Part shown: piece by piece, positions 1,595 to 61,037 of the stretch | Numbering within the stretch: the stretch's first letter is position 1 | Layout of the letters: the number at the start of each line of letters is the position of its first letter | NCBI GenBank assembly: GCA_002049455.2 | Contig: KV918835.1 | Location: 62,001 to 126,000 of the forward strand | DNA length: 64,000 nt | From: Porphyra umbilicalis | Taxonomy: Eukaryota > Rhodophyta > Bangiophyceae > Bangiales > Bangiaceae | Reading direction: 5' to 3' | Notes under the pieces: generated by a model | The model's database searches: none | Told to the model about the DNA's origin: nothing | Seen by the model: only the letters and a program-made list of their open reading frames with translations | Program-made: the position numbers and the translations under genes

Positions 1595-4500
1595 ATGTCT
1601 GGCCTGGCGCGCAAGCTCGGCAAGTCCTTCTCCCGCCGCGACCGCGCGCTCCGCTCGGGGGTGTCGGCCGGCGGCGATGGGGACACGGCCTCCTCCACGT
1701 CCGCGTCGTCGGAGCACATGGGCATCGGCGTCCTCGGCGACCGCCGCCGCTCCTCCCTCACCGCCCGCGACGGCGACACGGTGCCGCCGCCCGTCTCGCC
1801 GGCGGCGCCGTCGGTCGGCGGCGACCGCACGGGCGGGCAGCCGCGGGTGGGCGTCGGTGACCCGGGGGCGGCGCCGGCGCGCGGCGCGGGCCACAGCGGG
1901 TGCACCGGCGCCACGTGGGGGGGGGCCGAGGGGGGGGTGCGCCGCCCGACGCGGCGGCGGGCGCGTCCAAGGAGCCCCTCGACTTTTCGGGTCCGTACAT
2001 GGGCGTGGAGGAGCTGTCCGAGGTGTTGCGGCGGATGGACAGCACCGCGTCGGCCGGGTCGACCGGCAGCGGCGGCGGCGTCGGCGGGGGCGGTGGCGGC
2101 GCGCCCGCGTCGGCGTCCATGGACGTGTCGTCCACGTTTAAAAAGGCGCTCAAGCGGCTGACGACGGAGCGGGACGCCCTCAAAGGGTCCCTCGAAGCGG
2201 CGGAGCGGGCGGCCGCGGAAGCCGCCCGCCTTCGCGAAGCGGCCGTCGACGTGCGGCACCGGCTGCGCGTCGGCACCGCCGCCGCCACCACCGAAGCGGC
2301 GTCGGTCGCCGCCGCCGTGGCCGCCGCCGACGCGTTAAAGGTCGAAGTGCAACGCCGCCGCGGCGCCGTCTCGGCGGCGCTCGCGGGCGTGGCGTCGGCC
2401 GGCAAAGTCGCGGCCGACCGCGAGGGCGGGGTGGCCGCCCTCCGCGAGCGCGCCGCCCAAGCCGAAGCCGCCCTCGCGTCGGTGGTCAGTGAAGCGGCGG
2501 GGCGCAAGCGGGAGCTCGCCGCCGCCGCCGACGCGGCGGCCAAGGCGCGGCGGTGCGTCGCGCGGCGGACGGCGGTGGCGGTCGAGGCCGAGGCGGCGGC
2601 GGCGGCGGCAGACGCGGCGGCGGCGCAAGCGGCGGCGGGCGTGGTGGCCGCCAAAGCGGCGGCGGCGGCGGCCGAGGCGGCTGCCGCCACGGCGGGGGGG
2701 GAGGTGGAGTCGACCGCCGCGGCGGTGCGGGAGGCCGAGGCGCGGCGGGGTGCGGCGCTGGCGGCTGCCTCGTGGCGATCCGAGGACGCCACCCGCCGCG
2801 CCGCGTCGGCGGCGGTGCGGTTGGCGGAGCTCGCCGCCGCCGCCCAAGCCGCGCGCGTGGAAGAGGCGGCGGCCGTCCAGGCGACCACGACGGCCGCCGA
2901 CGTCCTCCGCACCAAGCAAGCCGAGGTGGCCGACGCGCGCGCGGCGGCGGCCGACGCGACGGCCGCGTCGGTGGCTGCCGCCGCGGCGGCGGTCGACCAG
3001 GCGCGCGCCGCCGTACGGGCGGTCAAAGCGGAAGCCGCCCGCTGCGCTGCGGCCGCCGACGCGGACGCGGCGGCCGCGTCTGCGGCTGCCAAAGAGGCCC
3101 TCTCGTCGGCGACCGCGACGGCCGACGCGGCGGTGGCGGGCCTGGCGGCGGTGGAGGCAGAGGCCACCGCCGCCCGCTCCGCCGCCCGCGTGCGCGCCGA
3201 GGGCCTTGAAGCCGACCTCCGGTCGGCGGAGCAGGCGCTCCGCCGCGCCGCCGCCGACGCGGCCGACGCGGACGCGGACGCGGCCGCCTCACGGGCGCGG
3301 TTGGCCAAGGCGGCCGCCCGCCTCGATGGCGTGCGCGCCGACGGGGCGGTGACGGAAGCCGACTTGGCGCGCGAAGTCACCGCCGCGGGGGTGCGGGCGA
3401 CCAAAGCGTCGGCCGCCGCCGCCACCGCCGAAGCGGGCGCCCGCGTGGCGGAAGCGAAGCGCGCCGACGCGGCCGCCGAAGAGGCGCGGGCGGTGGCGGC
3501 GGCGTCCGCTGCCGCCGACGAGGTGGCGGGCCTCCGCGCGCGCCTCGACGCGGCGGCGGCGGCGGCGGCCGACGGGGAGAAGGAGCGGACGCGGCTCGCC
3601 GCCCGCCTGCGGGCGGCCACCGTGGCCGCCGCTGACGCGGACGCGGAAGCCACGGCGGCCGACGCGGCGGCGGCGGCCGCGAGCGGGCGGGCCGAAAAGG
3701 CCGCCACCGCCGCCGCCGCCGCGCGGGCCGACGCTGACACGGCGACGGCGGCGGCGGCCACGGCCACGGCCGAGCGGTTGGCCGCCGAGGAGCGCGCGGA
3801 CCGGCTCGTCGCGACGCTGCCGGCGCTCGAGGAAGACGTGGCGGTGCTCGCCGACGCGGACGCGTCGATGCGCTCCGAGGCGGCCGAGGCGCGGCGCCAC
3901 CGGCGGGAGGGGGAGGAGCGCCGCCGCGCCGTTGAGGCGGCCACGGCGCGGATGGCGGCCGCGGGGGATGCGGTGGCGGCCGCCACCGCCTCGTCGGGGG
4001 CGGCCGCCGACCGCCTGACCGCCGCGCGCGACGCCCTCGGCGGGCTGACCGCCCGCACGGCGGCGGCGGCGGAGCACGCGGACGCGGACGAGGCGGCGGC
4101 GGCGGCGGCGGTGATTGCAGCCGCCGCGTCCGTGACGGCGGGGCAAGCGGCGGCCGCCGCCGCCGCCGCGTCGGCCGCCGACGCGGCGGCGGCCGGCAAG
4201 GAGGCGGCCGACGCGGCGGCGGCGGCCGATGCCGCGACCGCCGCGGCCGAAGCGGCGGCCGCCCGCCGCGTCGTGGCCGACGCTGCCACGGAAGCGGCGG
4301 CGGCAGACGTGGCCACCGCGCAAGCCGAAATCGACCGCCGCCGGGGCGACGCGGAGCGGGCCACGGCCGCCGCCGCGGCGGCCGTTGCGCGCGCCGACGA
4401 TGCGGCGGCGCGCCTGGCCGCCGCGACGGCGGAGCGCCAAGCCGCCTCCGCGGCGGCCGACGAGGCCCGCTCCGCGGCTGCGGCCGTGGCCGCAACGCGC

Positions 4501-7500
4501 GACGCGGCGGCGACGGCGGCCGAGGAGGAGGCGGCGGCCAAGGCCGCGGCCACGGACGGGGTGTCTGCTGCCGACGCGCGGGCGTCGGGCCTCCGCGCCG
4601 ACGTGGCGGCCGCGTCGGCGGCGGCGGCAGCAGCAGAGGCGGCTGCCGCCGACGCCCAGGCGGCCGCCGCCGCCGCCGCCGACGTGCGCGCAACGGCCGA
4701 GGTAGACGTGGCGGCGGCGGAAGCACGGTCGGCCGAGGCGACGGCGGCCGTAGCTGCCGCCGAAGCGGCGGTGGCCGAGGCGTCCTTGACGGCCGACGCG
4801 GCGGCCGCGGCGGCCGCCGACCGTGAGCGGGCGGTGGCCGTGGCAGCCGCGGCGGCGACGAGGAGAGACGCGGTGGCCGCCACCAAGGCGGCCGCCGACG
4901 CTGATCGGCGGGCGGCGGCGGCGGACAAGGCCGCCGCCGCGGCGGCCGCCGCCGCGCAAGCCGATCGCGCGGCGGCGTCCGAGGTGTCTGCCGCCGAGGC
5001 GGCCGAGCGCAACGCGGCGGCGGCGGCCGACGAGGCGGCGTCGCGCGCGACGACCGACGCGGTCGCGGCGCGTGCCGACGCGGCGGCGGTCGAGGGTGGC
5101 CCGCAAGCGGCCGCCGCGACCACCGCCGCCGCCGCTTCGCGCGACGCGGCGGCGGCGGCCGACGCGGCCGCCGCCCGTCACGCGGCGGTGGCCGTCCACG
5201 CGCGGGCGGCAGCGGCCGAGGCGGACGCAGACGCGGCAACGGCGCGGGAGGCGGCGGCCGCCGCCCGAGCCGCAGCCGCGACGGAATGCAGAGCCGCCGC
5301 CGCCGCGTCGACGGCCGCCGCCGACGCGGTGGCGCGGCTGGCGGCGGCAGACGCGGCGGCCGAGGCGGCCGGCGCGGCGGCCGCGGCGGCGCGCCAGCGG
5401 TCGGCGCGCGCGTCCGCCGCGGCAGACGAATTGCGCGCGTCCCTTGCCGGCGCGCACGCCGACGCGGCGGCGGCGGCGGAGCGCGAGGCGGCGGCGCGCG
5501 AGGCGGCCGCCACCGCGCAAGCCGAAGCCGCCGACGCGGTGGCGGCGGCGGGCGTGGCGGCGGCAGCGACGGCCGTCCAAGACGGCGCCGTGGCCGCCGC
5601 CGAAGCCGCCGCGTCCGAACGCCAGGCGGCGTTGCGAGCCGCCCGCGCCGCCGCGGGCACCGCCGGCGGCGCAACGACGACCGCCGACGACCGCCTCACG
5701 GCGGCGGTCGAGGCGGCGCAGGCGGCGTACGCGGCGCAAGAGGCGGCCGACTCGGACGCGGCGGCGGCGACGGCGGCGGCCAATGGGGCCAACGCGGACG
5801 CGGCGGCGGCGGTGGCGGCGGCGGCCGACGCGCGCGCTGCCGCCGCGTCTGCTGCCGCGGACGAGGCGGCGGCCGACCAAGCGGTGGCGGCGGCTGACGC
5901 TGCTGCCGCGCAAGCCGACGCGGATGCCGAGGCGGCGGCGGCCACGACGGCGGCGGCGCTGGCCGCCGCCGACGCGGCGCGGGCCGAGGCGGCGGACCTG
6001 TCGGCGACCGCCCTCCCCGCCGCGCACGCGGCGGTGCGGGCGGGCCGCGACGCGGCGGCGGCGGTCGAGGCGGACCTCCACGCCGCGATCGTTGCGTCGG
6101 GCAAGGCGGTGGCGCGCCGCGAGGCGGCCGCCGCCGCCGCTGGCGTCGCTGCCGACGCGGCCGACGCGGCCGAAGCGGCCGCCGCGGAGGCGGGCGGGGC
6201 GGCGGCGGCCGCCGCCGCGCGGCTGGTAGCGGCGGCGGCGGTGGCCGCCACGGGGCCCGCGTACGTGGCCGCCGCGGAGCGGGCGACGGCCGACGCGGCG
6301 GCCGCCGACGCGCGCGCGGCGGCCGCGGTCGCCGCCGCGGCTGCGGATGAGGAGGCGGCGCAGGCAGAGGCAACGTCCGCGGCGGTCGCGGCGGGCAATG
6401 CGGCCGTTGCGGCGGCCGCCGCCGCCGCCGACGTGGCCGACCGGCGGGCGGCGGACCGCGACCGGGCGGCGGCCGAGGCGGCCGCGGCCGAGGCGGCCGC
6501 GGCCGCGGCCGCGTCCGAACGGCGGTTGGAGGCGGGTGCCGCCACCGCGGCGGCCGACCGGGCGGCCGTGGCCGGGGCGGGTGCCGCCGCCGACGCGGCG
6601 CGGGCCGACTTGGCCGACGCCCGCGCCCGCGTCGACGCGGCGGTCGACGACGCCGCCGCGTCGCGGGCGGCGGCGGCGCGGTCCGCAGAGGCGGCGGCCG
6701 CCGCCCGCGGCGACGCGGCCGCGTCAGACGCGGCGGCGGCGGCCGATCGCAAAGCGGCCGACGCGGCGGTGGCCGCCGCCGAGACGGCGCGCGCCGACGC
6801 GGCAGCGTCGGCGGCCGACGCGGACGCGTCGACGGCGGCGGCGGCGGCGGCGCGCGACCGCGTCGCCGCCGCCGCCCGGCGGTTGACGGAGGTGACGGCC
6901 GACACGGACGCGGCGACGGCCGCCACGCAGGCCGACGCGGCCGCTGCCGCCGACACGGCGGCGGCCGACGCGGCCGCCGCCGCTGACGTGTCGGCCGTGA
7001 CCGCGGCGGGCGTTGCGGCGCGCAAGCGCGCGGCCGCGCTCGCCGCCGCCGCCGACGAGGCGGCCACTGCGCGGCGCGACGCGGAGGCGCGGCGCGACGC
7101 GGCGGTGGCCGCAGCGGCGGCGGCGGCGGCCAAGGCCACCGCCGCCGCCGCGGCGGCCACCGATGCGTCGGCGGCGGCCGACGCGGCGGCGGCCGACGCG
7201 ACGGCGGCGGCCGCCACCGAGGCGGCCGCGCAAGCGGCGCGCACCGACGCGGCGGCCGCCGCGGCGACCGCCGACGAGGGCGCGACGGCGGCCGACGTGG
7301 AGGCTGCCGCGGCGGAGCGGGCGGCCAAACTCTCCAAAGCCGCCGCCCGCGCCGCGTCGACAGACGTGGCGTCGCTCCCCCGCCGCCTGTCGGCGGCCGT
7401 CACGTCGGCGGCCTTGATGGAGGAGGCCCTCCCAGGCCGCCTCGCCGCCTCCGCCACGGCCGTGTCGGATTCGCACGAGCAGGCGGCGGCGGCGGCGGCG

Positions 7501-7616
7501 GCGACGCGGCATGTCAACTACCAGCTCACCGAAGCGGCGGGGCGCCACACAGAGGCGGAGCGCCGCGCGCGGGCGCTCGGGCGGGACATTGCGGCGGCGC
7601 GGGCGGCGGCGGATAA

Positions 7617-7648
<32 letters not shown>

Positions 7649-8193
7649 TTGCCGCCGCCGAGACGGCCAAAATGGCCGACGGCCTCGCCGCCACCGAGGC
7701 GGCGGTGCTGGCGGCGGGGGGGCCCGCCGCGCGGGAAGTGCGGGCGCTGGTGCGGGCGCGGGAGCGCCGCGCGCGGGCGGCGGCGGCGGCGGCGGCGGGG
7801 AGGGGGGGGGGGGGGGGGAAGGCCGCCCGCGCTGGCGGCGGGGCGGGGGGGATCGACGGGCTCGAGGTGGCCGAGTCGGTCGGCTCGGTGACGGTGCTCC
7901 TGGGGGGGTCGGCATGCTCCTCCGGGGGCTGGGGGGGGGGGGAAGGGCCGCCGGTGACCCCGGGGGGGGCGGTGACCCCGGGGTGGGGGGGTGCCGCAGG
8001 GGGGGGGGGTGGGGGTGGGGAGGGGCAGCGCTCCTTGCGGCTGCATCTCTTTTTCTGTGTGGGTGTTGGTTTTGGTTGGCTTGTCGTGCCGCCGGCGTTC
8101 CGGCACCCCATCAGCGCTGTTTTTTCTTCTCTTTCGGCGATTCCTTCTTTTTTGATGTTGTTCTTCGTGCACATAGACATAGCGGCAAACTGA
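1595..8193 (+). CDS. Giant alanine-rich coiled-coil protein (~2,200 aa)
   Basis: No family is recognised. The proposed start is the ATG at 1595 in an ACCACCATG context, giving a basic N-terminus beginning MSGLARKLGKSFSRRDRA. That frame runs to about 1,917-1,937, where two G runs (9 and 8 G) coincide with a change to the frame that stays open to the stop at 8193. The long frame alone has no ATG at its left edge, so I treat both parts as one gene with a miscalled or variable G run. About residues 100-190 are mixed sequence (EPLDFSGPYMGVEEL). The next ~1,800 residues are almost only A, E, D, R and K in continuous heptad-compatible strings such as AAEAAAADAA, predicting a very long, low-hydrophobicity alpha-helical rod. 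The last ~100 residues are Gly-rich and poly-G encoded, so the exact C-terminus is doubtful. A structural role is inference. Long antisense open frames across the gene are GCN/CGC artefacts. Confidence 0.65.
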
Positions 8194-8894
8194 TGGGGGC
8201 GGACATCTGCTTCTTTTCTCTCTTTCGTTCTCGCGACCGTCGAACGAGCGCGTGCATGGCAGGAGCGGTGGCCGTCGGCGGCGGTGCTGCCGTCGGCGGC
8301 GGTGGCCATGGCCGGGGCGGTCGCCCGCGCCGGCACGGGAGGCGGGCGCGTGCGCGCCACGCGGCACGGCCTGGTTCTGCTGCGCGTTGGGGGGGGCGCC
8401 GTGCACCCGCCCCGACGCCCCGCGGGCGGACGGGGACCACGGGGTGCGTGCGCTGGCACGGCCGGCTATGGCGCCGTGCCGGTGTTTGTCCCATCGCGCG
8501 CGCGCGCGGCGGTCGAGGCGGGGTGGCTGGCGGAGGGCACCGCGGCGTTTCGGCACGGACCGGCTCGCGGCGCACTCCGCGCTGCTTGACCGTTCCTTTG
8601 TCGCGCGGGGTCCGACGGGATGGGGCCGTGTTGCCGTTGCGCCGTGCGCAACGCGCGGGTGAGCCATCGGCTGGGTGTCGACGGCGCCTGGGGATGTTTT
8701 TCGAGACGCTGGTGACGGGCAAGACAATCAAGGCGTATCGTCGCACGGGGCGGCACGAGGTACACGCGCGCACACCCCCGACGTTGGCGTGCAACAGCGT
8801 ACGAGCCCTGGCACGCGGACACGTTTGTTTGGGTGGTCGGGCCCCACAGTGCCGACAACAAGGAGAAGCAGTCCGTCGCGTCGAGAACGAGGCG
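8194..8894. other. Intergenic, 3' side of coiled-coil gene
   Basis: T-rich bases at about 8,120-8,230 look like the 3' UTR of the preceding gene. The rest is GC-rich without a recognisable product on either strand. Confidence 0.3.
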
Positions 8895-8900
8895 CAAAAA
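8895..8900 (-). terminator. Pol III terminator of tRNA-Ser
   Basis: On the minus strand a run of six T follows the tRNA 3' end after four bases. This is the expected RNA polymerase III termination signal and supports a functional tRNA gene. Confidence 0.7.
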
Positions 8901-8904
8901 ACTC

Positions 8905-9019
8905 GCGTCCTGCAGGGCGCCCATGAGTTCGAACCTGCGAGTCCCTAGGGACAGTAGATAGATTGTACGTTCAAGTCTACCGCCTTGTGCGTCACATGTA
9001 ACCACTCGGCCAAAGACGC
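8905..9019 (-). tRNA. tRNA-Ser (UGA) with three apparent small introns
   Basis: Read on the minus strand, the ends form a seven-pair acceptor stem (GCGTCTT with AGGACGC, one G-U). Then come TG, a D-stem GCC/GGC with GAGTGGTTA, an anticodon stem GTAGA/TCTAC with loop start CTTGAA (anticodon TGA), a class II variable arm (GTCCCTAGGGAC) and a T-stem GCAGG/CCTGC with TTCGAAC. Three extra stretches interrupt this otherwise canonical serine tRNA: ~12-13 nt in the D-loop (near 8,985-8,997), 10 nt after position 37 (near 8,961-8,970), and 9 nt in the T-loop (near 8,917-8,925). Removing them leaves 83-84 nt, a normal tRNA-Ser length. Exact intron edges are ambiguous by a base or two. Nuclear tRNAs with introns in D- and T-loops are known from the red alga Cyanidioschyzon merolae. 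A pseudogene is the alternative, but perfect stems and a T6 terminator argue against it. Confidence 0.85.
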
Positions 9020-9373
9020 AACCATGTCGCCCGCAGCAAATAATGAAGCAAAATAAATACAACACATTTTAATGGGCAAAATGCCGGGATTATGCTTCGG
9101 AAAAGCGAACTCCATATACCAACTCCACCTGATATAGGTTCAGTTTTGAACAGAAAACAGCTTTGACACAAGCACTGCGTGGCACGGGACAGGAACCGAG
9201 CAACCCATCGTTTTCACGAGACGAAAAATCATAGGTTGACGGTCAAGCCGCTTTCGCACACGGCATATAATTTTCACACATTTTGGGTCCCCGAAACCGA
9301 TGCAAGCCAGTTGCTCGCCCCAACGGTACTCTGCCTGCCACCCAGTTTGCCAACCCCGGCGCCGCCCCCGCCC
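9020..9373. other. Intergenic spacer between tRNA and Der gene
   Basis: An A/T-richer spacer of about 350 bases holding the upstream side of the tRNA gene and the 3' side of the Der gene. No gene is seen. Confidence 0.4.
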
Positions 9374-11188
9374 CTATGCCCGCCGCGGCCGCGCCGGCCG
9401 CGTCGACGTGCGGCGGAGGACGAGGGGCACGCCCGCGAGGCCAAACTCGGCGCGCAGCCCGTTTTCCAGCGCCGCCATATAGTCGGCCGCCACCCCCGCC
9501 GGCGCGTACACGTCAAACGTCGGCGGCGCGGTGGCGGTTTGGGCGAGGAAGCCCGCGCGCGGGGGCGGGGGCGCCCCCCCCCCCCCCCCCGCCGCCGCCC
9601 GACGGCGCGGCGCGCGTTGAAGGCGCGGAGGAAGCGGTTGAGCGCCGCCGTCCCGACGACCGCCACCCACTGGCCGTGCGTGGCGGTGACCGCGTCGGCC
9701 AGGGCGGCCGCATCCCGCCCCGCCCACGCGCCCGACGACGCGTACACGACGCGCACGCCCGGAAAGGCGGCGGCGAGGCGGCGGCGCAGCGACTCGAGCG
9801 ACGCCGTCAGTGGCGGCGGCAGCGTGTCAATCTTGTTGGCGAGGACGACGACCGGCCGGCCGGCGGCGGTGGCGGCCGCCGCCAGCCGCCCGTCTTGGGC
9901 GGTGAGGGCGGCGCCCGCGTCGACGACGAGGAGGGCGACTTGCGCGCGCCGCAGCGACGCGACCGACGCGGCCGCCGACGCGACCTCGACGGGGTTCATG
10001 GTCGGGACGCGGCGGCGGAGGCCGGCCGTATCCACAATCGTGACCGTGTGGGGGGGAGGGGGGGGGGGGGTGGCCCCGCTGCGAGGGGGCGCCGGCAGCG
10101 TCCACTGCGTGTGGAGGGCGTCGCGCGTGACGCCCGCCGCGGGGCCCGTCAGCGCCACCGTGTCGCCGACGAGGGCGTTGAGGAGGGTGGACTTCCCAAC
10201 GTTGGGCCGCCCGATAATGCACACGGAGCGCAGGCGGGGCCGCGTGGCCGCCGCCGTCGCGGCGCCGGGCGCGGCGTCGGCGGTGGCGTCAGCGGCGGCG
10301 GCGGCGGCACCGTCGGCCGGCGCGTCAGCGGGCGGCGGTGGCGCCCCCCCCACCGCGGGTGGTGGGCCGTCGACCGCCCCACGCCGCGCCGCCGCCGCCC
10401 GTGCGCCCGCCGACGGCGGCACGTCGGCCAAGACGGCGGCAGCCGGCATGGCCGGCAGCCCCGGCACCCCCCCAAACACCCGCGGCGGACCGACAATCCC
10501 CGCGTCGAGCGCCGCGACGGCGGCGTAGAGCTCCGCGAGCCCCTCCCCGTGCTCTGCCGACACGGCGAGCGCCTCGCCGAGGCCGAGGCCGTAGGCGTCG
10601 GCGTGGACGGCCGCCGCCGAGTGCGCGTCGGCCTTGTTGACGACCGGCACGATCGTCGGGCCGGCAAACCGGTGCCCGCCCCCGCCCCCACCCCCACCGC
10701 CGTCGCCGCCGGCACCATTGCCGTCGCTGGTGTCGGCCACCGGCGGCGACGCGGTCCGCAGCCACCGCACGAGGGCGCGGTCGGCGGGGGTGACCCCCCC
10801 CACCCCATCCAACACGAGGAGCACCCCGTGCGCCGCGCGGATGGCCGCCGCCGTCCGCCCCGCCATGCCCGCGTACAACCCCGCGTAGAGGTCCCCGTCG
10901 GCAACCGACGGGCGGCCGGCCGCGTGCGCGGGGGCGACCGCCGACGCGGCGGCGGCGGCGGCGAGCGACGGGCGGCGGCCGGGCGGGCCGCGGCGGCTCG
11001 CCGTCGGCGACGCGGTCGCCTCGCGGGCGGTGCGGGGGGGGGGGGGGGGGGGGGGGGGGGACGGCGCCGCCGCCGCTGTGACGCCGCCGCCCGGGGGGGG
11101 GGGGGGGGGGTCGCATCGGCGGCGGCGGCGGCAAGCCACGCCGCCGCCGACCGGGAGGGCGCCCACCCGGGGGGGGCGCCGCGTCGGC

Positions 11189-11227
<39 letters not shown>

Positions 11228-11758
11228 TGCCCGTGGGGGGGGGCCCGACAGGGGCGGCAGCCGTGACCGGCCGGCGCCCGCCGCCACCCCCGCCGTGTCG
11301 ACGAGCGTAAAGGCCAAGTCGGACACGACCGCCACCGACGCGCGCGCGTCGCGCGTCACCCCCGCGGTGGCGTGGACGACGGAGCGGGAGAGGATGCCGC
11401 CGCCGGGGCCACCACCGTCGGCGTGGGCGCCCGCCCCCCCCCCCCCGCCGCCGCCGCCGCCGCCGCCGCCGCGGACCCCGCCGCCCGCCCGCACCGCGGC
11501 GGTGAGGCGGTTGAAGAGGGTGCTTTTGCCGACGTTGGGCCGCCCGACGAGCGCGAGCACCAGGCCCGTGTGGACAATGCCTTGGAGGCGCCGGTTGGGG
11601 CGGCGGCGGGCGGCGGCAGAGGGGCGGGTGAGCGGCGCCCGCCGGGGGGGGGGGGGGGGGGGCGCCTGCGGGGGCGGCGGCGGCCCCCCCCGCCCGCGGC
11701 GGCGGCCGGGGGGGGCCACCGCCGCCCGTGCGAGGGCGGGGAGCGACGGGACCGGCAT
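9374..11758 (-). CDS. der: Der/EngA double-domain GTPase, probably plastid-targeted
   Basis: Der/EngA is a ribosome-assembly GTPase that acts on large-subunit maturation; plants and algae have a plastid form. Both G domains are visible. The first has GRPNVGKST (~11,545), ATAGVTRD, DTAG (~11,296) and NKAD (~10,630). The second has GRPNVGKST (~10,205), DTAG (~10,030) and NKID (~9,830). The C-terminal KH-like domain is recognised in FLAQTATAPPTFDVYAP and AALENGLRAEFGLAGVPL, ending at a TAG at 9374. The start is the ATG at 11758 (MPVPSLPALARAAVAPPGRR), an Arg/Ala/Pro-rich transit-like N-terminus. The product would be ~790 aa, against 440-490 in bacteria, because of poly-Gly, Ala and Pro insertions, one inside the first G domain between G1 and G2. 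The frame changes twice at G/C runs (roughly 11.04-11.11 kb and 9.57-9.59 kb). Conserved motifs on both sides suggest homopolymer miscalls or slippage, not an old pseudogene. Confidence 0.85.
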
Positions 11759-11763
11759 GGCAT

Positions 11764-11780
11764 GGGGGGGGGGGGGGGGG
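11764..11780 (-). repeat. Poly-C tract (17 C, sense strand) before Der start
   Basis: On the coding (minus) strand 17 C are followed directly by ATGCC and then the proposed Der ATG. The ATG touching the tract is in another frame. This is the same arrangement as at 1563-1588 and 12260-12281. Confidence 0.8.
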
Positions 11781-12259
11781 CGCTTGTGCGAATGGGTAGG
11801 CCACACAATGGGGAAGGGGACGACACGCTTGGCAAGGGGGGGGTGTGCGGCGGCGCGCGCGGGGCGGGTGGGGTTGCGGGCAGCGGCGGCGCGGGGGGCG
11901 GCGCGCCGCCTTGGCAAGGACGACACCAGACGCGGGATCCGGTCAAGGCAGTTGGTTGATCGACGAGCCTTGGATCGTCGCAGCTGACGGATGTGCCGAC
12001 TTTTCACGACCTCGTCGCAGAGTTGGGCTCGAAAAACGGGTGGGATCGTCACCCGACCCCGGTTTGGCAAGAGCCCACCACCTTGGTGCCGCTGCCCGCA
12101 CGGTCGGCCCTCTTGTGCGCGTGGTCGTGGCGGCGTCGAGCGGCAGCCGCGCGCGTCTTCCCCCTTCCCCCCCTTCCCACCCGCCCCGTGCCAGTGCCAC
12201 GCGTCCCGGTCGCCCCCCCTTGCGCCACCCCCCTCACGCGTGGCTCCCCTCGGCGTGCG
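11781..12259. promoter_or_regulatory. Divergent promoter region, Der / LYR gene
   Basis: About 480 bases separate the divergent starts of the Der gene and the LYR gene. The region is GC-rich with a less GC-rich core near 11,940-12,080. It must hold the leaders of both genes. No TATA box or other motif can be named. Confidence 0.4.
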
Positions 12260-24560: not shown

Positions 24561-26082
24561 ATGAGCGGCGCGCCGACAGCGATGACGGCGCCGGGGGCGA
24601 CCCCTGGGATTGACCTGCCTGTCCCTGGCGCCGACTGCCCGCCCGTCGAGGCTGTTGCGGCCGCCGCCGCGTCGGCTGCGGTGACAGCAGCGGCCGAGGG
24701 CGGAAGGGAGGGGGAGCTGAAGGCCGCCGCGGTGGAGGCGGTGGCCCCTGCGCCAGAGGGTGGGCGAAGTGGGCAAGCTCGCATTGGGCCCTACACTCTC
24801 GGACGCACGCTGGGGACGGGTTCGACTTGTACGTTGAATTGCGCTGTTCGGTGGTTTGTTGGTGTGGCTGTGTTGCCGTGGCAGGACTGCGTTGGGCAAT
24901 GCTGAACTGCGAGAGGTGGCTCGGACTCGTCGTTGTGGGGAACGTGCCACTGATGTTGCCTGTGTTCCATTGCTTGTGCAGCGTGTTTTCAGCGTCTTGT
25001 GCGCTGTGTTCTTGTTGTATCTTTCTATGTTTCTTTGTTTTGTAGGCAAGGTGAAGCGCGCGGTCAACGAGTCTACTGGGGAGATGGTTGCCATCAAGAT
25101 CATTAGCAAAGAGCTGCTGCGCAAGAAGCCGTCTCTGAGGAGGAAGATCCAGCGCGAGATTGCCGTCATGAAAATGATGCGCTCTCACCCCAACGTCATC
25201 GATTTTTACGAGCTGTACGAGACGGACGGCCACCTGCTGCTGGTTGTCGAATATTGCCCTCACGGGGAGCTGTTTGACCGCCTCATCACCCGCGGCTGCT
25301 TTCCCCCTGAGGAAGCGCTCGACATTTTCCAGCAGGTCATCCACGGTCTCAAGTATTGCCACAAGCGGCTCATCTGCCACCGGGACATCAAGCCTGAGAA
25401 CCTGCTTCTCGCTCCTAACAACGTCGTCAAGCTTGTGGACTTCGGGCTGGCGACCATGGCGGTGGGGAACCTCCTCGAAACGGCCTGCGGCAGCGCGCAC
25501 TATGCGTCGCCCGAGATCATTTCCGGCGAGTCGTATGACGGCTACCTTTCAGACGTGTGGTCGTGCGGGGTGCTGCTGTTTGCGCTGCTGACCGGCTCCC
25601 TCCCGTTTGACGATGACAACTTTTCACGTCTGCTTGCTAAGGTGCAAGCTGCCAAGCTGACCCTACCGCCCTCCATCCCCTCTGAAGTACGGTCTCTACT
25701 GCTGGGCATGCTGACGGCCAACCCTCGTTCACGCTTCACCCTCGAGGAAGTCATGGCGCACCCCTGGTTCACCTCCCAGCGCCCACGGCTGGCCGTTTTC
25801 TATGACGTGCCCGATCCGTTTATGAGCGCCGAGTCGGCGGCAAACTCGGTGCCCGTCCGAGATCCCAACCCGGTCTACCTTGGTCACCTGCGCGCGCTCG
25901 GCTGGGGCGAAACGTCCGTGCTTAAGCGCAAGCTTGCCCAGGTCGAACACTCGCTGGAGCGCGAATGCTACCGCACGTTTGAGAGGCACTACGAACAACA
26001 AGAGGACAAGCGGCGCGTCAGCCGCGACGTGGCTGGGCTCGAGTCGCAGCTGGCTAACGTCGAGCTGGTCCCCTCGTCTTAG
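24561..26082 (+). CDS. CAMK-group Ser/Thr kinase (BRSK/Gin4/SNF1-like)
   Basis: Exon 1 is 24561-24828, intron 24829-25045 (GTACGT...TGTAG, phase 1) and exon 2 25046-26082, giving 434 aa. The intron splits the glycine loop, and the join reads LGTGSTCKVKRAVNESTGE. All catalytic elements are present: VAIK (Lys107), HRDIKPEN (Asp203), DFGLA (221-225), an activation segment ending in CGSAHYASPE, and the HPWF that closes the C-lobe. CGSxHYASPE together with GVLLFALLTGSLPFDDDNF points to the CAMKL branch (BRSK/SAD, Gin4/Hsl1, SNF1). After the kinase domain come ~100 residues with HLRALGWGET, possibly a UBA-like helix, and a charged coiled-coil tail. The Ala-rich first ~70 residues are disordered. 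The start is the first ATG in frame. Confidence 0.88.
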
Positions 26083-28524: not shown

Positions 28525-29135
28525 TTGGCCGGTAGGCGCCGTCCATGGTAAGCTACTTTGCCTCTTTTTTTGCCATAGCGGCGCTCTTACGGCAGACGTG
28601 GGCCACGAGCGCGGGCTTAGCCGTTCACCAGTAGTGGTTGTGCACGACGTCGCTGTCTTGGAATGCGCACGCTTAAGCGGGACCGCCGTAGCGCAGCTCT
28701 TTTTTACTGCCGGCAGGCGTCGTCTATGGTACGCTGCTTTGCCTCGTTTGTTGCCGTTGAGGTGCTCTTAGGGCACATGTGGGCCGCGAGCGCGGGCTCA
28801 GCCGTGCACCAGGGGTAGGTGCGCAGGACGTGGCTCTCTTCGGATGCGCACGCGAACGCAGGACCGCCGTAGCGCAGCTCTTTTTTACTGCCGGCAGGCG
28901 TCGTCTATGGTACGCTGCTTTGCCTCGTTTGTTGCCGTTGCGGTGCTCTTAGGGCACATGTGGGCCGCGAGCGCGGGCTCAGCCGTGCACCAGGGGTAGG
29001 TGCGCAGGACGTGGCTCTCTTCGGATGCGCACGCGTACGCAGGACCGCCGCAGCGCAGCTCTTTTTTACTGCCGGCAGGCGTCGTCTATGGTACGCTACT
29101 TTGCCTCGTTTGTTGCCGTTGCGGCGCTCTCAGGG
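28525..29135. repeat. 181-bp tandem satellite, ~3.4 copies
   Basis: A unit with period exactly 181 bp: the core GGCGTCGTCTATGGTA recurs at intervals of 181 from about 28,535. Copies at 28,681-28,861 and 28,862-29,042 differ at only a couple of bases. The left copy is clearly diverged and the right copy is partial. No reading frame is conserved. Confidence 0.92.
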
Positions 29136-29599
29136 CTCTTGTGAGCGGGTGCAGAGACCCCCGGAGAGTACTCCGGGGAAGTCTTGATGTGGGCCTGTGC
29201 ATGGTGGCTATATTTAGTTTGGTGTTCCATGGTCGATCCTCGCTTCGCTTGGTCGTGCAGCACATCGATATTGCTCGGGGCTTCGCGCCGACAGGGAGAA
29301 GAGTGTCGTGCTGCAGTGGCAAATATTGTGACCAATATTATCATTGACGGCATTTATTATAATCTCGTACGTATCACAAAGTTTGTGACAAGCTTAGCTA
29401 TTATCGCTTGCAACATTTGACAGCAGTAGCACCCCTTCTATCGCCGCGTCGACTTTCCCGTCTGCCCTTCCGCTGCTCCAGGACTGCCATTGATGATGGT
29501 CGCGCGCCCATTTCCAGGGGCCCCATGCGCGCCACACTCCGGAGGGCTCCGCTCCGCCATGTCCACCAACTGCGGCGGCCAACGGCAGTCTCGGCGAGA
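29136..29599. other. Spacer between the two tandem arrays
   Basis: Mixed-composition sequence with an AT-rich core at 29,330-29,420. No gene is seen. Confidence 0.35.
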
Positions 29600-39163: not shown

Positions 39164-42100
39164 CTACGCCGCACTCGCCAGCCGCCGTTGGCCGAGGGTG
39201 TAAGAGCCCGCGCCAAGGGCAGCGGGCAGGTGCCGGCCATGTTTCCCACAGCAACCACGTTGTAGAGCACATAAGTTTCTACCCGACCGACTACCCGTGC
39301 TTCTTGACTGATCTTCACCTGCTCCACCACCTGGCTCTTGGCCCGCACCGCCTCCCTGCCCTTCAAGATAGCCACTCTCCCGCCCCGCGTCTTTGACATC
39401 ACTCTGTTGCTCGTTCTCGCCAACTCCTTGCTCCCCGCGCTCGCCTTCGCCATCCCCTCTACGCCCACCACTACCTCGCTTGTCACCGACGTCGGCGCCC
39501 ACGCCCGGCGGCGCAGGCACATCGTCTGCGCGACGATTGCTTCGGTTGGCGGCGGTCCCAGCCTTGTTAGCGCGGATTTTGTCCGGCTCTGGGACAAAGG
39601 CAAGCAGCTCGTCCAGCCACATCTGCCATGGCACGCGTACAGACGGCTTTCTCTTTCCAGCCGCGGTCGTCGTGACCTCCCGCTTGGCCTCCTTGTCCTT
39701 CCAGTCGGGGTCCGCCCACGCAACGTCCCACAGGCGCAGGATGTACACGCGTGCCTTCTCCTTGTTGTCGACGCCGGGTTTGCCCATGGCCACTTGGCGT
39801 AGCTTGTCGTAAACCCGGTTCTCCCGCTTACCGTACCCCCCCCAGCGAAAAGAAGACAGCATTATACGCAACGACTCCGCGCTGATGTTCTTTTTCGTCT
39901 CGGAGATGACATCGGGGCGGATGTTGTCCACGTCGGACCAGATGTCCTGCTCCGCGTCGTACTCCTCCATGAGGATGCGCGCGGCGACCATCATCCGCCT
40001 CCAGGTAGGGTCTTGCTTGTTCGGGTAGACCTTGTTGACGACTGCCACCTTCTTGGCGCCGCTGCCTTGACGAACGCTTTTCCGGGGTGAGCGCGCCGCG
40101 GCGATGCCGCCTCCTCCCCCCTTAAGAGTTGGGGCAGCCGGCGTGCTTGGTGGTGGCGCGACCTGGCTTGCCGAGGACGGTGTGACCGTCAAGGCGGTCT
40201 TGACGCTCGCCGCCCCAGGGACCGCAGATGGCGACGACCTGGCGACGCCCAGCAGAGCTACAACGGTAGCATCAGGAGCCGCCGAGTCCGGCAGCTCATG
40301 GTTGAGCTTGGCGTACCGGAGGTGGATGACGGTGAGCAAGTTGGAGATGAGAAACGGACCCACCTGCCGGATCTCCCCGTTGATGCCCGCCGGCAGCGCG
40401 TCACGCAAAACGTCCAGGAACCACGGCTTCAGCCCTCTCTTGGTCGCCGGTGGCGAGTGGACCGAGCGACCAGCCGCAAAGTTGATCAAGTAGTACGGCC
40501 ACACGTCGGCCTTGACGAGGACAGAGATCAGTTGGTAGCGGGGAGTGGCGTCGAAGATGACACCCACAAAAGCAAACAGCCGAGCCCATGTGCTTCCCGG
40601 AGTCTCGGAGACAGGAGCGATGACAGGGACAGCCGGGGGGTCGCCCAGGCTGCAGCGCCCGCCCCTCCGCCCACAGGCAAATTGCTGCCGGCAGCCGCGT
40701 GAAGCGGCGGCGGCGGTGACGGCGCTGCAGAAGCGTCCGAAGAGGCCCGGTAGCGGGACCCAGGCAGCTCGGATTGGGGGCCATGGCCAGCTTGCGATTG
40801 CCAGGCACTGCCGTCAGGTACCGCAGGCGGCCCACTAGGTGCGCCGCTCCAGACCGTTTGACCAGCTTTTCGGGCGGCCGCGCTGAGCTCAGCAGCGGCC
40901 GCGTCGTCCGCCTCCGATCACTGTGGGTGCACGGCCGCTGCCTTCTCTTCTTCCGCGGCCTGACGCTCGGCCGCCGCTGTTAGCGCGAGCGCCGCCGCCG
41001 CCACCTGCTCGTCAGCGGCCTTGCGGTCGACGGCGGCCTTGCGCGCGAGCGCCGCCGCCACCTGTTGCTCTTCGGCGGCCTTGCGGTCGACGGCGGCCTT
41101 GTGCGCGAGCGCTGCCGCCGCCTCCTGCTCGTCGGCGGCCTTGCGGTCGGCGGCGGCCTTCTGTTCCAGCGCCGCCGCCGCCTCCTGGTCGTCGGCGGCT
41201 TTGCGGTGGGCGGCAGCCTTGCGCGCGAGCGCCGCCGCCGCCTCCTGCTCGTCAGCGGCTTTGTGGTCGGCGGCGGCCTTGTGCTCACGCGCCGCCACCG
41301 CCTCCTGGTTGTCGGCGGCCTTGCCGTCGGCGGCGGCCTTGTGTTTCAGCGCCGCCGCCGCCTCCTGGTCGTCGGCGGCCTTTCTTTCGGCGGCGGCCTT
41401 GCGCGCGAGCGCCGGCGCCGCCTCCTGCTTGTCAGCGGCTTTGCGGTCGGCGGCGGCCTTGTGCTCCAGCGCCGCCGCCACCTGTTGCTCTTCGGCGGCC
41501 TTGCGGTCGGCGGCGGCCTTGCGCGCGAGCGCTGCCGCCGCCTCCTGGTCGTCGGCGGCCTTGCGGTCGGCGGCGGCCTTGTGTTACAGCGCCGCCGCTG
41601 CCTCCTGGTCGTCGGCGGCCTTGCGGTCGGCGGCGGCCTTGCGCGCGAGCGCCGCCGCCGCCTCCTGCTCGTCAGCGGCTTTGCGGTCGGCGGCGGCCTT
41701 GTGCTCCAGCGCCGCCGCCGCCTCCTGCTCGTCAGCGGCTTTGCGGTCGGCGGCGGCCTTGTGCTTCAGCGCCGCCGCCGCCCCCTGGTCGTCAGCGGCC
41801 TTGCGGTCGGCGGCGGCCTTGTGCTCCAGCGCCGCCGCCGCCTCCTGGTCGTCGGCAGCCTTTCTTTCGGCGGCGGCCTTGTGCTCCTGCGCCGCCGCCG
41901 CCTCCTGGTCGTCGGCGGTTTTGCGGTCGGCGGCGGCATTGCGCTCCAGCGCCGCCGTCGCCTCCTGCTCGTCGGCGGTCTTGCGGTCGGCGGCGGCCTT
42001 GCGCTTGAGCGCCGCCGCCGACTCGCGCTTGTCGGTGGCCTTGCGCGCGGCCGCGGCGCCGCGCACAACCACCTATGCCGCCTCCTGGTCGTCCGCGGCC

Positions 42101-42585
42101 TTGCCGCAGGCCGGAGCTTCACGCTCGCGCTTCTTCCCGGCTCCGGCCTTGTCGGTGCTGTCCTTCACGCCGCTTGCTGCTTTGTTGGCGGTTTGGCGGC
42201 GCCGCTCCTTTTTCGCTAGCCGTCGCGAGGGCTGCCTGTCGCCCGCGACGGCTAGGAGCTTGTCTTTTTCAGCGGCCAAGCGTCGCTCGAGGTCGGCGTT
42301 GTCCTCCGCAACTGTCGCCTCAGCCGCGGCGATGGCCTTGTGCATTGGGCTGAGGGCAGGCGCCGAGGGCAGGGAGGCAGCCCGAGTCCCAGCGCTGCTG
42401 TTTTGCGGTGAGGCCCGTTCGTTGGCGGTAGCGCCGCCAGGGCGTCCGTCCGACGCAAATTTGGCCAGCCTGGAGCGCTTGGAGCGCGGAGAGGATGGGA
42501 CATTGGAAGAACCTGTAGCCGGTGCACAGTCGCCGGCGTTATCGACGGTGCGCTTAGTGCGCGGCTTGCGCTTGTTGCCGCCCAT
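39164..42585 (-). CDS. ORF1 of the repeat element, copy 1
   Basis: No family is recognised. The start is the ATG at 42585 (MGGNKRKPRTKRTVDNAGDC), with a K/R-rich nuclear-signal-like N-terminus. Next come a charged helical part (ADLERRLAAEKDKLLAV), ~18 units of a 20-residue repeat (ALARKAAADRKAADEQEAAA type), a linker, a conserved hydrophobic block (FDATPRYQLISVLVKADVWP, YYLINFAAGRSVHS, QVGPFLISNLLTVIHLRYAK) and a basic C-terminal domain rich in Trp (DPTWRRMMVAARILMEEYDA, WDVAWADPDWKDKEAK, VPWQMWLDELLAF). The frame is not continuous in this copy (it changes within or after the repeat array); the same region in copy 2 is one frame. The protein looks like a nuclear, coiled-coil, nucleic-acid-associated factor; this is inference. 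Confidence 0.55.
40981..42060 (-). repeat. 60-bp tandem array, 18 units, inside ORF1 copy 1
   Basis: Exactly 60-bp periodic units, each with a CTCCTGGTCGTCGGCGGCCT-type core on the plus strand, encode a 20-residue alanine/lysine/glutamate helix repeat on the minus strand. Copy 2 has only about eight units, so the array has expanded or contracted between copies. Confidence 0.95.
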
Positions 42586-42670
42586 CTACGAAGAAAAGGC
42601 CAATGCAGTCGCACAATCGGTGTTGCACACGAAAGGACAGCAAAAAGAAAGAAAGTTTCAACGTTAGGCT

Positions 42671-43452
42671 ACAGTGCTCCGCGTTCCTTGACGTCGATCA
42701 AGAGTATGCCTCTGCCTCTCGTGTACCAAGTCAGACAAGACCACCAACACGCGAAAAACCAAGTCACAAGATCGAGCTGCAGTCATACCGTTGGAACACA
42801 GAACGACGCGGCGGGGCTTGTAGCCAGAGTGAGGCACGCCAACAACGCCAACAGCGAGCAGCCCCGCCCCGCAGCCAACAGTGTCGGCCGCAGAGTGTAC
42901 CACTGCGCCGCGCACACAAGCACAGGCACAGTACATGAAAGGGCAGCAAAGAGCATGGGAGTTTCAAAGTTAGACTACAGTGCTCCGCGTGCCTCCATGC
43001 CCATCACGAGTATGCCTCTGCCCCTCGTGTACCAAGTCAGACAATACCACCAACACACGAAAAACCAAGTCACGAGATCGAGCTGCAGTCATACCGTTGG
43101 AACGCAGAACGACGCGGCGGGGCTTGTATCCAAAGTGAGGCACACCAACAACACCAACAGCGAGCAGCCCTGCCCCGCAGCCAACAGTGCCGGCCGCATA
43201 GTGTACCACTGCGCCGCGCACACCAGAACAGGCACATTACATGAAAGGGCAGCAAAGAGCATGGGAGTTTCAAAGATAGACTACAGTGCTCCGCGTGCCT
43301 CCATGCCCATCACGAGTATGCCTCTTCCCCTCGTGTACCAAACCAGACAATACCACCAACACGCGAAGAACCAAGTCACAAGATCGAGGTACATCTGTAC
43401 CGTTGGTAAAGAGAACCACGCAGCCCGGCATGTAGCCAGAGCGTGGCAATAG
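42671..43452. repeat. 306-bp tandem repeats (2.5 copies) upstream of ORF1, copy 1
   Basis: ACAGTGCTCC recurs at 42,671, 42,977 and 43,283, exactly 306 bp apart. The array starts ~85 bp upstream of the ORF1 start. The period is a multiple of three, and a plus-strand frame from ATG 42,706 (MPLPLVYQVRQDHQHAKNQV) stays open through all units (~248 codons). The same frame is open in copy 2. Promoter repeats for ORF1 or a short repeat protein on the plus strand are both possible. Confidence 0.9.
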
Positions 43453-44931
43453 AGCAGCGACCAGCTCTACCCCACAGCGAATAGTGACGGCAGCCGACCG
43501 TAGCACTGCGCCCAGCGCACCAATACGGGCACAGGTCCTGCGCAACTGTGAAGGATGCACAGACACTAACAGCAACAAAGACAGACGCGATTGCCTCGCA
43601 GTCGCGAACGGAGGTCGATGCGTGCGAGATGAGTGCGCCATGCCTTGTCAGGTGTGTGGCCAACTTCGTGACAGCATGCGGTGCGCAATCGAATCGTTAC
43701 CATGTGACCGGGCTCCCAATGTTTGTAATGATGACGACACCTGTCAGAGAAGCATGTGTCAAATGATGCGGCTAGATTTAGTCGAAGTTGCACGACATAT
43801 AATGATCTAGTTACTGGATGATAGGGCTGCGTACCATATCAGAAAATTACCGTCTGTCACATTTTGACTCTTAGCTCGGGTCGTACCTGACGCAGGGGCC
43901 AACCTATTCGACCGTCACGTGCCCCGTGAACAATGAAACTTGCGTGTGCATTTGGTAAGGATGGGGCGGCTGTGGACGGCGCCATGTGGACGCATCGGTG
44001 CGGCCACCCGCGACACTGGGGCGGATCGGGAGGTCATCGGAAGTGGCGGACCGCGGCGTGCCGGGACTGGGCGGGGAACGTCGCCGCCGCCGCCTCGACA
44101 GCGGGCACGCGTCTCTGTGTGGGGTGGAATGGTCGGTGGCAGTGCCCTCTGTGGCGTGAGCGGGCTGTGTATGAAGGCGGCCGTGGCAGCGCCGGAACGG
44201 CCCGGCGGACAGCCGCGAGCCATAGCCACATTAGCCACCAGGTGGAGCGGTCGGCTGCAGCCTGGCGGCTGCCGTGGTCCGCGAACCTCGCTGGCGCACC
44301 CTCGCTGCTGCCGCCACCGGCGCTGTCAATGCACACTGTCGACCGTTCCGCTCTGCACAGACACCTCGACGACTGGCGGCTGGTCGGCGAATGCGACCGG
44401 CCGGTAACGTGGGTCGGCTGTCGCGTGGGGCCACCGTTTTCATCTCACGCCTTTCGTGCAATTTTGTGTAGTAGGCTGGTGGGGGGCGGGACGGGTGCGG
44501 CGGCTGCGGTGTGGCGTCCGCCGGCTGCGCGAATCGCCCACCTGAGTGGTGCATGTGCCTCTTACGAAGTACTGGCGGGTTGCTTCGTTGGGTGTGGTTG
44601 GGCGCAGGGCCGGGCTGAGTGCGGTGTGCCTCCATGCCGCCCGTTTGCAGGCGACGGGTGGCAGCTGCGTCTGCGGCTGCGCTGGCCGCCTGTGCTTGCT
44701 TTTGTGGCCCATGTTTGTTCTGCGGGCCGCTCCAGCGCTGAGCGCGTGTCGGACGGACGCCTTGAATCGAGTTGGTGCTCAGGAAGCTCTTTTCATGCCC
44801 CGCAGAGTGGCGATTCATCACTCACAAGTAAATGAGCCCGTCTGTTCTTTGCATCTACGATCCACGCAACATGACAGAGCAAAACGTGTGCACCTCGTTA
44901 TATCTAAACCGCTGTCCTCGCCCAGCCCGCT
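43453..44931. other. Repeat-element spacer between ORF1 promoter side and gene B
   Basis: Part of the repeated element, matching 61,820-63,221. A minus-strand frame of ~196 codons (44,231-44,821) is open in both copies, while a longer plus-strand frame in this copy is interrupted in copy 2. Neither has a recognisable domain. Confidence 0.4.
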
Positions 44932-58882: not shown

Positions 58883-60952
58883 TCAAAGTGGAGGGAGGCG
58901 ACGAACTCCTCCATGAGGATGCGCGCGGCGACCATCATCCGCCTCCAGGTAGGGTCTTGCTTGTTCGGGTAGACCTTGTTGACGACTGCCTCCTTCTTGG
59001 CGCCGCTGCCTTGACGAACGCTTTTCCGGGGTGAGCGCGCCGCGGCGATGCCGCCTCCTCCCTCCCCCCTTAAGAGTAGGGGCAGCCGGCGTGCTTGGTG
59101 GTGGCGCGACCTGGCTTGCCGAGGACGGTGTGACCGTCAAGGCGGTCTTGACGCTCGCCGCCCCAGGGACCGCAGATGGCGACGACTTGGCGACGCCCAG
59201 CAGAGCTACAACGGTAGCATCAGGAGCCGCCGAGTCCGGCAGCTCATGGTTGAACTTGGCGTACAGGAGGTGGATGACGGTGAGCAAGTTGGAGATGAGG
59301 AACGGACCCACCTGCCGGATCTCCCCGATGATGCCCGCCGGCAGCGCCTCACGCAAAACGTCCAGGAACCACGGCTCCAGCCCCCTCTTGGTCGCCGGTG
59401 GCGAGTGGACCGAGCGACCAGCCGCAAAGTTGGTCAAGTAGTACGGCCACACGTCGGCCTTGACGAGGACGGAGATCAGTTGGTAGCGGGGAGTGGCGTC
59501 GAAGATGGCACCCACAAAAGCAAACAGCCGAGCCCATCTGCTTCCCGGAGTCTCGGAGACAGGAGCGATGACAGGGACAGCCGGGGGGGTCGCCAAGGCT
59601 GCAGCGCCCGCCCCTCCGCCCACAGGCAAATCGCTGCCGGCAGCCGCGTGAAGCGGCGGCGGCGGTGACGGCGCTGCAGTAGCGTCCGAAGAGGCCCCGT
59701 AGCGGGACCCAGGCAGCTCGGATTGGGGGCCACAGCCAGCTTGCGGGTGCCAGGCACTGCCGTCAGGGACCGCCGGCGGCCCACTAGGTGCGCCGCTCCA
59801 GACCGTTTGACCAGCTTTTCGGGCGGCCGCGCTGAGCTCAGCAGCGGCCGCGTCGTCCGCCTCCGACCACTGTGGGTGCACGGCCACTGCCTTCTCTTCT
59901 TCCGCGGCCTGACGCTCGGCCGCCGCTGTTAGCGCGAGCGCCGCCGCCGCCACCTGCTCGTCGGCGGCCTTACGGTCGACGGCGGCCTTGCGGTCGGCGG
60001 CGGCCTTGCGCGCGAGCGCAGCCGCCGCCTCCTGCTCGTCAGCGGCTTTGCGGTCGGCGGCGGCCTTGTGCTCCAGCGCCGCCGCCGCCTCCTGCTCGTC
60101 GGCGGTCTTGCGGTCGGCTGCGGCCTTGTGCTCCAGCGCCGCCGCCGCCTCCTGCTTTTGAGCGGCCTTGCGGTCGGCGGCGGCCTTGTGCTCCAGCGCC
60201 GCCGCCGCCTCCTGGTCGTCGGCGGCCTTTCTTTCGGCGGCGGCCTTGTGCTCCTGCGCCGCCGCCGCCTCCTGGTCGTCGGCGGTCTTGCTGTCGGCGG
60301 CGGCCTCGCGCTCCAGCGCCGCCGTCGCCTCCTGCTCGTCGGCGGTCTTGCGGTCGGCGGAGGCCTTGCGCTTGAGCGCCGCCGCCGACTCGTGCTTGTC
60401 GGTGGCCTTTCGCGCGACCGCGGCGCCGCGCACAACCACCTCTGCCGCCTCCTGGTCGTCCGCGGCCTTGCCGCAGGCCGGAGCTTCAGGCTCGCGCTTC
60501 TTCCCGGCTCCGGCCTTGTCGGTGCTCTCCTTCACGCCGCTTGCTGCTTCGTTGGCGGTTTGGCGGCGCCGCTCCTTCTTCGCTAGCCGTCGCGAGGGCT
60601 GCCTGTCGCCCGCGACGGCTAGGAGCTTGTCTTTTTCAGCGGCCAAGCGTCGCTCGAGGTCGGCGTTGTCCTCCGCACCTGTCGCCTCAGCCGCGGCGAT
60701 GGCCTTATGCATTGGGCTGAGGGCAGGCGCCGAGGGCTGGGAGGCAGCCCGAGTCCCAGCGCTGCTGTTTTGCGGTGAGGCCCGTTCGTTGGCGGTAGCG
60801 CCGCCAGGGCGTCCATCTGACGCCAATTTGGCCAGCCTGGAGCGCTTGGAGCGCGGAGAGGATGGGACATTGGAAGAACCTGTAGCCGGTGCACAGTCGC
60901 CGGCGTTGTCGACGGTGCGCTTAGTGCGCGGCCTGCGCTTGTTGCCGCCCAT
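58883..60952 (-). CDS. ORF1 of the repeat element, copy 2 (689 aa)
   Basis: One continuous frame from ATG 60952 (MGGNKRRPRTKRTVDNAGDC) through the basic N-terminus, a helical part, about eight 20-residue repeats, a Pro/Ala/Ser-rich linker (SGAPSGPPAVPDGSAWHPQA) and the conserved block WARLFAFVGAIFDATPRYQL / VKADVWPYYLTNFAAG / QVGPFLISNLLTVIHLLYAK. It ends in a different frame from copy 1 after the Gly-rich linker, and the Trp-rich C-terminal domain of copy 1 is missing because of the ~840-bp deletion. That the same long frame is kept over ~450 codons at ~97% identity supports real coding capacity. Function unknown. Confidence 0.6.
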   Translation of the reverse strand: MGGNKRRPRTKRTVDNAGDCAPATGSSNVPSSPRSKRSRLAKLASDGRPGGATANERASPQNSSAGTRAASQPSAPALSPMHKAIAAAEATGAEDNADLERRLAAEKDKLLAVAGDRQPSRRLAKKERRRQTANEAASGVKESTDKAGAGKKREPEAPACGKAADDQEAAEVVVRGAAVARKATDKHESAAALKRKASADRKTADEQEATAALEREAAADSKTADDQEAAAAQEHKAAAERKAADDQEAAAALEHKAAADRKAAQKQEAAAALEHKAAADRKTADEQEAAAALEHKAAADRKAADEQEAAAALARKAAADRKAAVDRKAADEQVAAAALALTAAAERQAAEEEKAVAVHPQWSEADDAAAAELSAAARKAGQTVWSGAPSGPPAVPDGSAWHPQAGCGPQSELPGSRYGASSDATAAPSPPPPLHAAAGSDLPVGGGAGAAALATPPAVPVIAPVSETPGSRWARLFAFVGAIFDATPRYQLISVLVKADVWPYYLTNFAAGRSVHSPPATKRGLEPWFLDVLREALPAGIIGEIRQVGPFLISNLLTVIHLLYAKFNHELPDSAAPDATVVALLGVAKSSPSAVPGAASVKTALTVTPSSASQVAPPPSTPAAPTLKGGGRRRHRRGALTPEKRSSRQRRQEGGSRQQGLPEQARPYLEADDGRRAHPHGGVRRLPPL
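59930..60430 (-). repeat. 60-bp tandem array, ~8 units, inside ORF1 copy 2
   Basis: The same 60-bp unit as at 40,981-42,060 but with about eight copies, one of them partial near 59,985. Confidence 0.93.
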
Positions 60953-61037
60953 CTACGAAGAAAAGGCCAATGCAGTCGCACAATCGGTGTTGCACACGAA
61001 AAAACAGCAAAAAGAAAGGGAGTTTCAACGTTAGGCT

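Follow-up and report, generated by a model that had tools for sequence, protein, structure and literature searches.

The minus strand of the window (the whole 64,000-nucleotide stretch of DNA analyzed in this study) contains, from position 9019 to 8904, a complete tRNA-Ser(UGA) of class II, all stems of which are fully paired. Judged from its sequence, this locus is a real and very probably functional gene in what appears to be nuclear DNA, and its precursor would carry three short introns. The features of the gene and its flanks are as follows.

9030 to 9089, minus strand: AT-rich stretch at -70 to -11, 62% AT; possible TATA-like element with a putative function
8904 to 9019, minus strand: entire tRNA-Ser(UGA) gene, beginning at the first acceptor base (9019) and ending with the discriminator G73 (8904)
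9019-9013 with 8911-8905, minus strand: acceptor stem
9010-9008 with 8984-8982, minus strand: D stem
8986 to 8998, minus strand: D-loop insert, 13 nt, putative cut after the ninth loop base with 1-2 bases of play on each side
8980-8976 with 8958-8954, minus strand: anticodon stem
8971 to 8973, minus strand: anticodon TGA (UGA)
8960 to 8969, minus strand: anticodon-loop insert, 10 nt, position 37/38
8939 to 8953, minus strand: variable arm of class II type with a 5-bp stem
8938-8934 with 8916-8912, minus strand: T stem
8918 to 8927, minus strand: T-loop insert, 10 nt, best putative cut 59/60
8904, minus strand: discriminator G73, next to the last acceptor base (8905)
8896 to 8901, minus strand: T6, likely RNA polymerase III terminator, two bases downstream of G73

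No mismatch was present in any of the five stems (acceptor, D, anticodon, variable, and T), and the extra bases were confined to the loops. These results agree with an earlier note on this DNA, which had recognized a class II serine UGA tRNA with correct stems and a T6 stretch behind it. The same note had placed the gene at 8905-9019 without naming a strand; the 5' end at 9019 holds, but an end at 8905 omits G73 at 8904. The two halves of the gene are in linear order, and the circularly permuted arrangement, with the 3' half upstream of the 5' half, was not found. The locus has T8, G15 with C48, G18G19, T33, and T54T55C56, which are residues expected in eukaryotic elongator tRNA (PMC3978253). 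Of the internal boxes, A is intact and B retains GGTTCGAA ahead of the T insert. Additionally, A14 and G53-C61, plus G73 for serine, are present at the locus and are presumably further expected residues.

As encoded, the loops measure 23 nt (D), 17 nt (anticodon), and 17 nt (T), which corresponds to 13, 10, and 10 extra bases when mature loops of 10, 7, and 7 nt are assumed; the D-loop excess would be 12 instead of 13 if the mature D-loop retained one base more. Among the roughly 12, 10, and 9 extra bases proposed before, the anticodon value was correct and the D value is 12 or 13, but the T-loop holds 10. Removal of the inserts left 83 nt including G73, which ARAGORN identified as tRNA-Ser(tga), in line with the canonical tRNA of 83-84 nt that had been anticipated. 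The gene shares the anticodon-loop insert at 37/38 with ordinary single-intron eukaryotic tRNA genes, but that class has this insert only, whereas the D- and T-loops are also interrupted here. Like multi-intron eukaryotic tRNA genes, it contains more than one insert, some of them outside 37/38, and yields a full cloverleaf after their removal. With mismatch-free stems and inserts only in loops, three introns in a tRNA-Ser(UGA) gene, as first suggested in the earlier note, are the best reading of this anatomy.

We propose that RNA polymerase III would transcribe the gene from its internal boxes, perhaps aided by the AT-rich upstream element, and would stop at T6. A tRNA splicing endonuclease would then excise 10 nt at 37/38, 10 nt from the T-loop (best at 59/60), and approximately 13 nt from the D-loop. 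The exons would be connected by a ligase, and the resulting 83-nt body would receive CCA. The 62% AT content at -70 to -11 compares with a window mean of 32%; of the 60-mers, 0.86% in the window (step 10) and 0.95% within 3 kb were as AT-rich.

The bulge-helix-bulge motif consists of two 3-nt bulges, each cut after the second base, and a central helix of four pairs. In the T-loop, a cut at 59/60 gave a central helix with 4/4 pairs, three of them wobble, and exact 3-nt bulges, and in the anticodon loop a cut at 37/38 gave 3/4 central pairs, with C32 opposite U in the helix. No alternative cut leaving 7-nt T and anticodon loops reached three pairs, and the intron length at both 59/60 and 37/38 would be 10 nt. 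Among shuffled T inserts, 4.9% showed 4/4 pairs at 59/60 and 7.1% at any of three cuts, while 13.5% of shuffled anticodon inserts showed 3/4 pairs at 37/38. The D insert folds as a hairpin and had six candidate cuts with 3/4 pairs and mature loops of 8-12 nt, none of them with clean geometry. The folding energies of the arms were not unusual: shuffled inserts equalled or exceeded their stability in fractions of 0.106 (D), 0.58 (anticodon), and 0.136 (T). The folding of intron borders, which had been suggested as a check, thus gave a fit to a minimal bulge-helix-bulge at the anticodon and T junctions, one that shuffled inserts often matched, and no such fit at the D junction. The splice-site evidence for three introns is suggestive only, and the case is carried by the exons.

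The weakness of the splice-site motifs would also suit a pseudogene, that is, a former tRNA-Ser(UGA) gene that received three small insertions and became dispensable through intact copies elsewhere. In a passage of one review, the non-canonical tRNA introns of other eukaryotes are for the most part regarded as pseudogenes (PMC4090602). However, random decay is expected to affect stems as well, and the insertions at this locus are restricted to three loops, the stems are free of mismatches, and G73 and T6 are retained. Neither broken stems nor lost key residues, which would mark a pseudogene, were found at 8904-9019. We therefore consider a pseudogene unlikely and a functional gene with three introns the preferred interpretation.

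Standard tRNA finders did not detect the gene. Neither ARAGORN nor Rfam (gathering score) reported a tRNA in the whole window, and for 8801-9130 Rfam gave none even at E<=10. When each of the three inserts was kept or removed, ARAGORN called a tRNA in three of the eight combinations. With the anticodon insert alone kept, a tRNA with a 10-nt intron was reported, and with the T insert alone kept, tRNA-Ser was still called at a shifted position. There was no call in any of the four combinations keeping the D insert, nor with the anticodon and T inserts both kept, and the raw precursor gave 0 calls at the ordinary threshold. With the threshold set to 70% and introns allowed, the raw precursor gave 119 overlapping calls, which were meaningless and were discarded. 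In addition, 704 combinations of insert boundaries leaving 10-, 7-, and 7-nt loops were submitted to ARAGORN, and 468 were called as tRNA, namely Ser(tga) in 203, Asp in 139, Glu in 63, and Ala in 63. Because several isotypes were called, ARAGORN leaves the insert boundaries unfixed.

The call with the T insert alone, together with the hairpin formed by the D insert, could be explained by a functional tRNA that keeps one or more inserts in an enlarged D- or T-loop, the 37/38 anticodon intron alone being removed. However, the contact between D-loop and T-loop on which tRNAs depend would be disturbed by loops of 23 and 17 nt, respectively, and ARAGORN was silent whenever the D insert was kept. 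Retention of inserts therefore appears very improbable compared with the excision of all three.

The resemblance to a tRNA was also evaluated with a descriptor that required both internal boxes (A and B), every stem, and a terminator, with insert sizes free and one acceptor mismatch tolerated, although the gene itself has zero acceptor mismatches. In the real window, the descriptor found one locus, the tRNA-Ser(UGA) gene at 8904-9019. A chance resemblance is extremely improbable, since 10,799 shuffled windows (2-kb blocks, dinucleotides preserved) gave one false locus in total on both strands, even though the descriptor was composed only after the gene was known and the Rfam tRNA model found no match even at the relaxed E value.

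Further disrupted or permuted tRNAs, for which the earlier note had suggested a search, were sought within the window, and 8904-9019 was the only result. A relaxed linear scan returned this locus alone, whether or not a terminator was demanded, and a permuted-tRNA scan of the window returned none. Among 10 listed box-B-like sites in the window, solely the one at 8935 falls within a scan-reported locus, and no 14-mer of the gene occurs a second time in the window. A pattern for a Ser tRNA with a disrupted D-loop had 0 matches in viral contigs, and a slightly looser version had 0 in a second contig set; these collections consisted of viral and prokaryotic contigs, and such blanks are therefore little informative for algae.

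The tRNA-Ser(UGA) gene is flanked by a minus-strand ORF with a GTPase domain (stop at 9274) and a plus-strand alanine-rich ORF (end at 8193), and a spurious-looking ORF (7914-8948, plus strand) overlaps it. The GTPase gene (MMR_HSR1; EngA/Der-like by eye) extends over 9274-12070 on the minus strand and is split over two overlapping reading frames, perhaps by a spliceosomal intron or a frame error. The plus-strand ORF at 1900-8193 is a candidate gene of 2097 aa in DNA of up to 85% GC; by eye, most of it looks alanine-rich and coiled-coil-like.

The window also contained repeats. A repeated region was found as two direct copies (39164-43695 and 58883-62062), approximately 18-19 kb apart, with 300-nt blocks up to 98% identical. 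Both copies harbor tandem arrays of 60-nt units (18.6 and 8.3 units, respectively) and of 306-nt units (2.7 and 2.5 units). Pfam gave no match for either minus-strand ORF at the left ends of the copies, and a peptide pattern from the ORF at 39164-40567 matched three stretches in viral contigs, with 0 relatives among them. This region is possibly a mobile or duplicated element. A further tandem array at 28528-29143 comprised 3.4 copies of 181-nt units with 91% matches.

The window encodes a protein kinase (24925-26082), for which the nearest PDB entries were BRSK2, HSL1, and SNF1, and a pattern from which matched 20 stretches in the second contig set with 0 relatives. It also encodes a ThiF-rhodanese protein, which we take to be MOCS3-like, and a protein with a Low PSII accumulation1/Rep27 domain (DUF3493). 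Together, these three genes suggest nuclear DNA of a photosynthetic eukaryote. The mean GC content of the window is approximately 68%, and the values given in part of a published comparison are 64-68% for Pyropia yezoensis, P. haitanensis, P. umbilicalis, and Bangia and 37-57% for other red algae (PMC7423979). Among red algae, Bangiales would therefore be the likeliest order, provided that the host is one of them; it may also be another GC-rich alga.

The closest precedents come from Cyanidioschyzon merolae, in which at least 12 tRNA genes have several introns and three have introns in the D-, anticodon, and T-arms (PMC9602550). The earlier note had named mainly this alga as precedent, which is correct for these three genes but omits the two in the Guillardia theta nucleomorph (PMC4090602). 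The introns of C. merolae tRNA genes measure 11-69 bp, with up to three per gene (PMC3978253); those of tRNA-Ile(UAU) lie at 12/13, 37/38, and 53/54, the D and T introns are thought to be removed ahead of the anticodon intron, and the processing of three-intron tRNAs has RT-PCR evidence (PMC9602550). The present gene resembles them in having one short putative intron each in the D-, anticodon, and T-arms, a run of T, and AT-rich DNA upstream (PMC3978253, PMC9602550). In contrast, its two 10-nt inserts are just below the 11-69 bp range (PMC3978253), its bulge-helix-bulge motifs are less clear, and the window GC of approximately 68% exceeds the 37-57% of non-Bangiales red algae, C. merolae among them (PMC7423979). 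Unlike C. merolae tRNA-Ile(UAU), it is a class II serine tRNA gene with different places of the D and T inserts.

The Guillardia theta nucleomorph is the reduced genome of a secondary endosymbiont. Its three-intron tRNA genes are those for eMet and Cys(GCA) (PMC4090602), and its non-canonical insertions of 3-24 nt are removed according to RT-PCR, many of them being described, in the passages concerned, as having no defined bulge-helix-bulge (PMC4090602, PMC3978253). The presence of three small inserts in one gene, some at non-canonical places, is common to both (PMC4090602), whereas the present gene is for Ser rather than eMet or Cys(GCA) and lies in a window with long repeats and tandem arrays. 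Another algal Ser(UGA) gene with a disrupted structure is that of Ostreococcus lucimarinus, tRNA-Ser(TGA), which is permuted with an extra intron at 27/28; its halves are reversed, unlike the linear gene found here (PMC3978253). Green algae have permuted tRNAs and, as stated in part of the same source, almost no tRNAs with ectopic introns (PMC3978253), and permuted ones also occur in Auxenochlorella (PMC12636532).

With tRNAscan-SE, 97-165 tRNA genes were counted in four multicellular red algae, in a study with Porphyra umbilicalis among its species, and 22-26 in unicellular red algae except Galdieria (82), according to the available part of that study (PMC10496412). These counts imply that most tRNAs would be ordinary if the host belonged to the multicellular group. 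Among the matches listed from the openly licensed literature, covered by titles and abstract starts, none described nuclear tRNA genes with several introns for Porphyra, Pyropia, or Bangia.

Taken together, three-intron tRNA genes are a rare arrangement already known from C. merolae and the Guillardia nucleomorph, and the present gene is of a known kind in a possibly new lineage. We give roughly even credence to a broader view, in which D- and T-loop introns of minimal bulge-helix-bulge size (10 nt) also occur beyond Cyanidiophyceae and nucleomorphs, in a nuclear genome that is rich in repeats and probably belongs to Bangiales. In that case, permissive tRNA splicing endonucleases would be an ancient and common property of the red lineage, not a peculiarity of genomes that have been reduced, and essential tRNAs would be missed by standard finders. 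If the precursor is spliced as proposed, an essential tRNA would depend on an unusually permissive endonuclease cutting at three different places in one molecule, and such eukaryotic cutting has been described for C. merolae and nucleomorphs (PMC3978253, PMC4090602). If true, this finding would account for tRNAs absent from annotation, as in the low counts of unicellular red algae (PMC10496412), and one more lineage would make it easier to determine the age of the relaxed splicing system.
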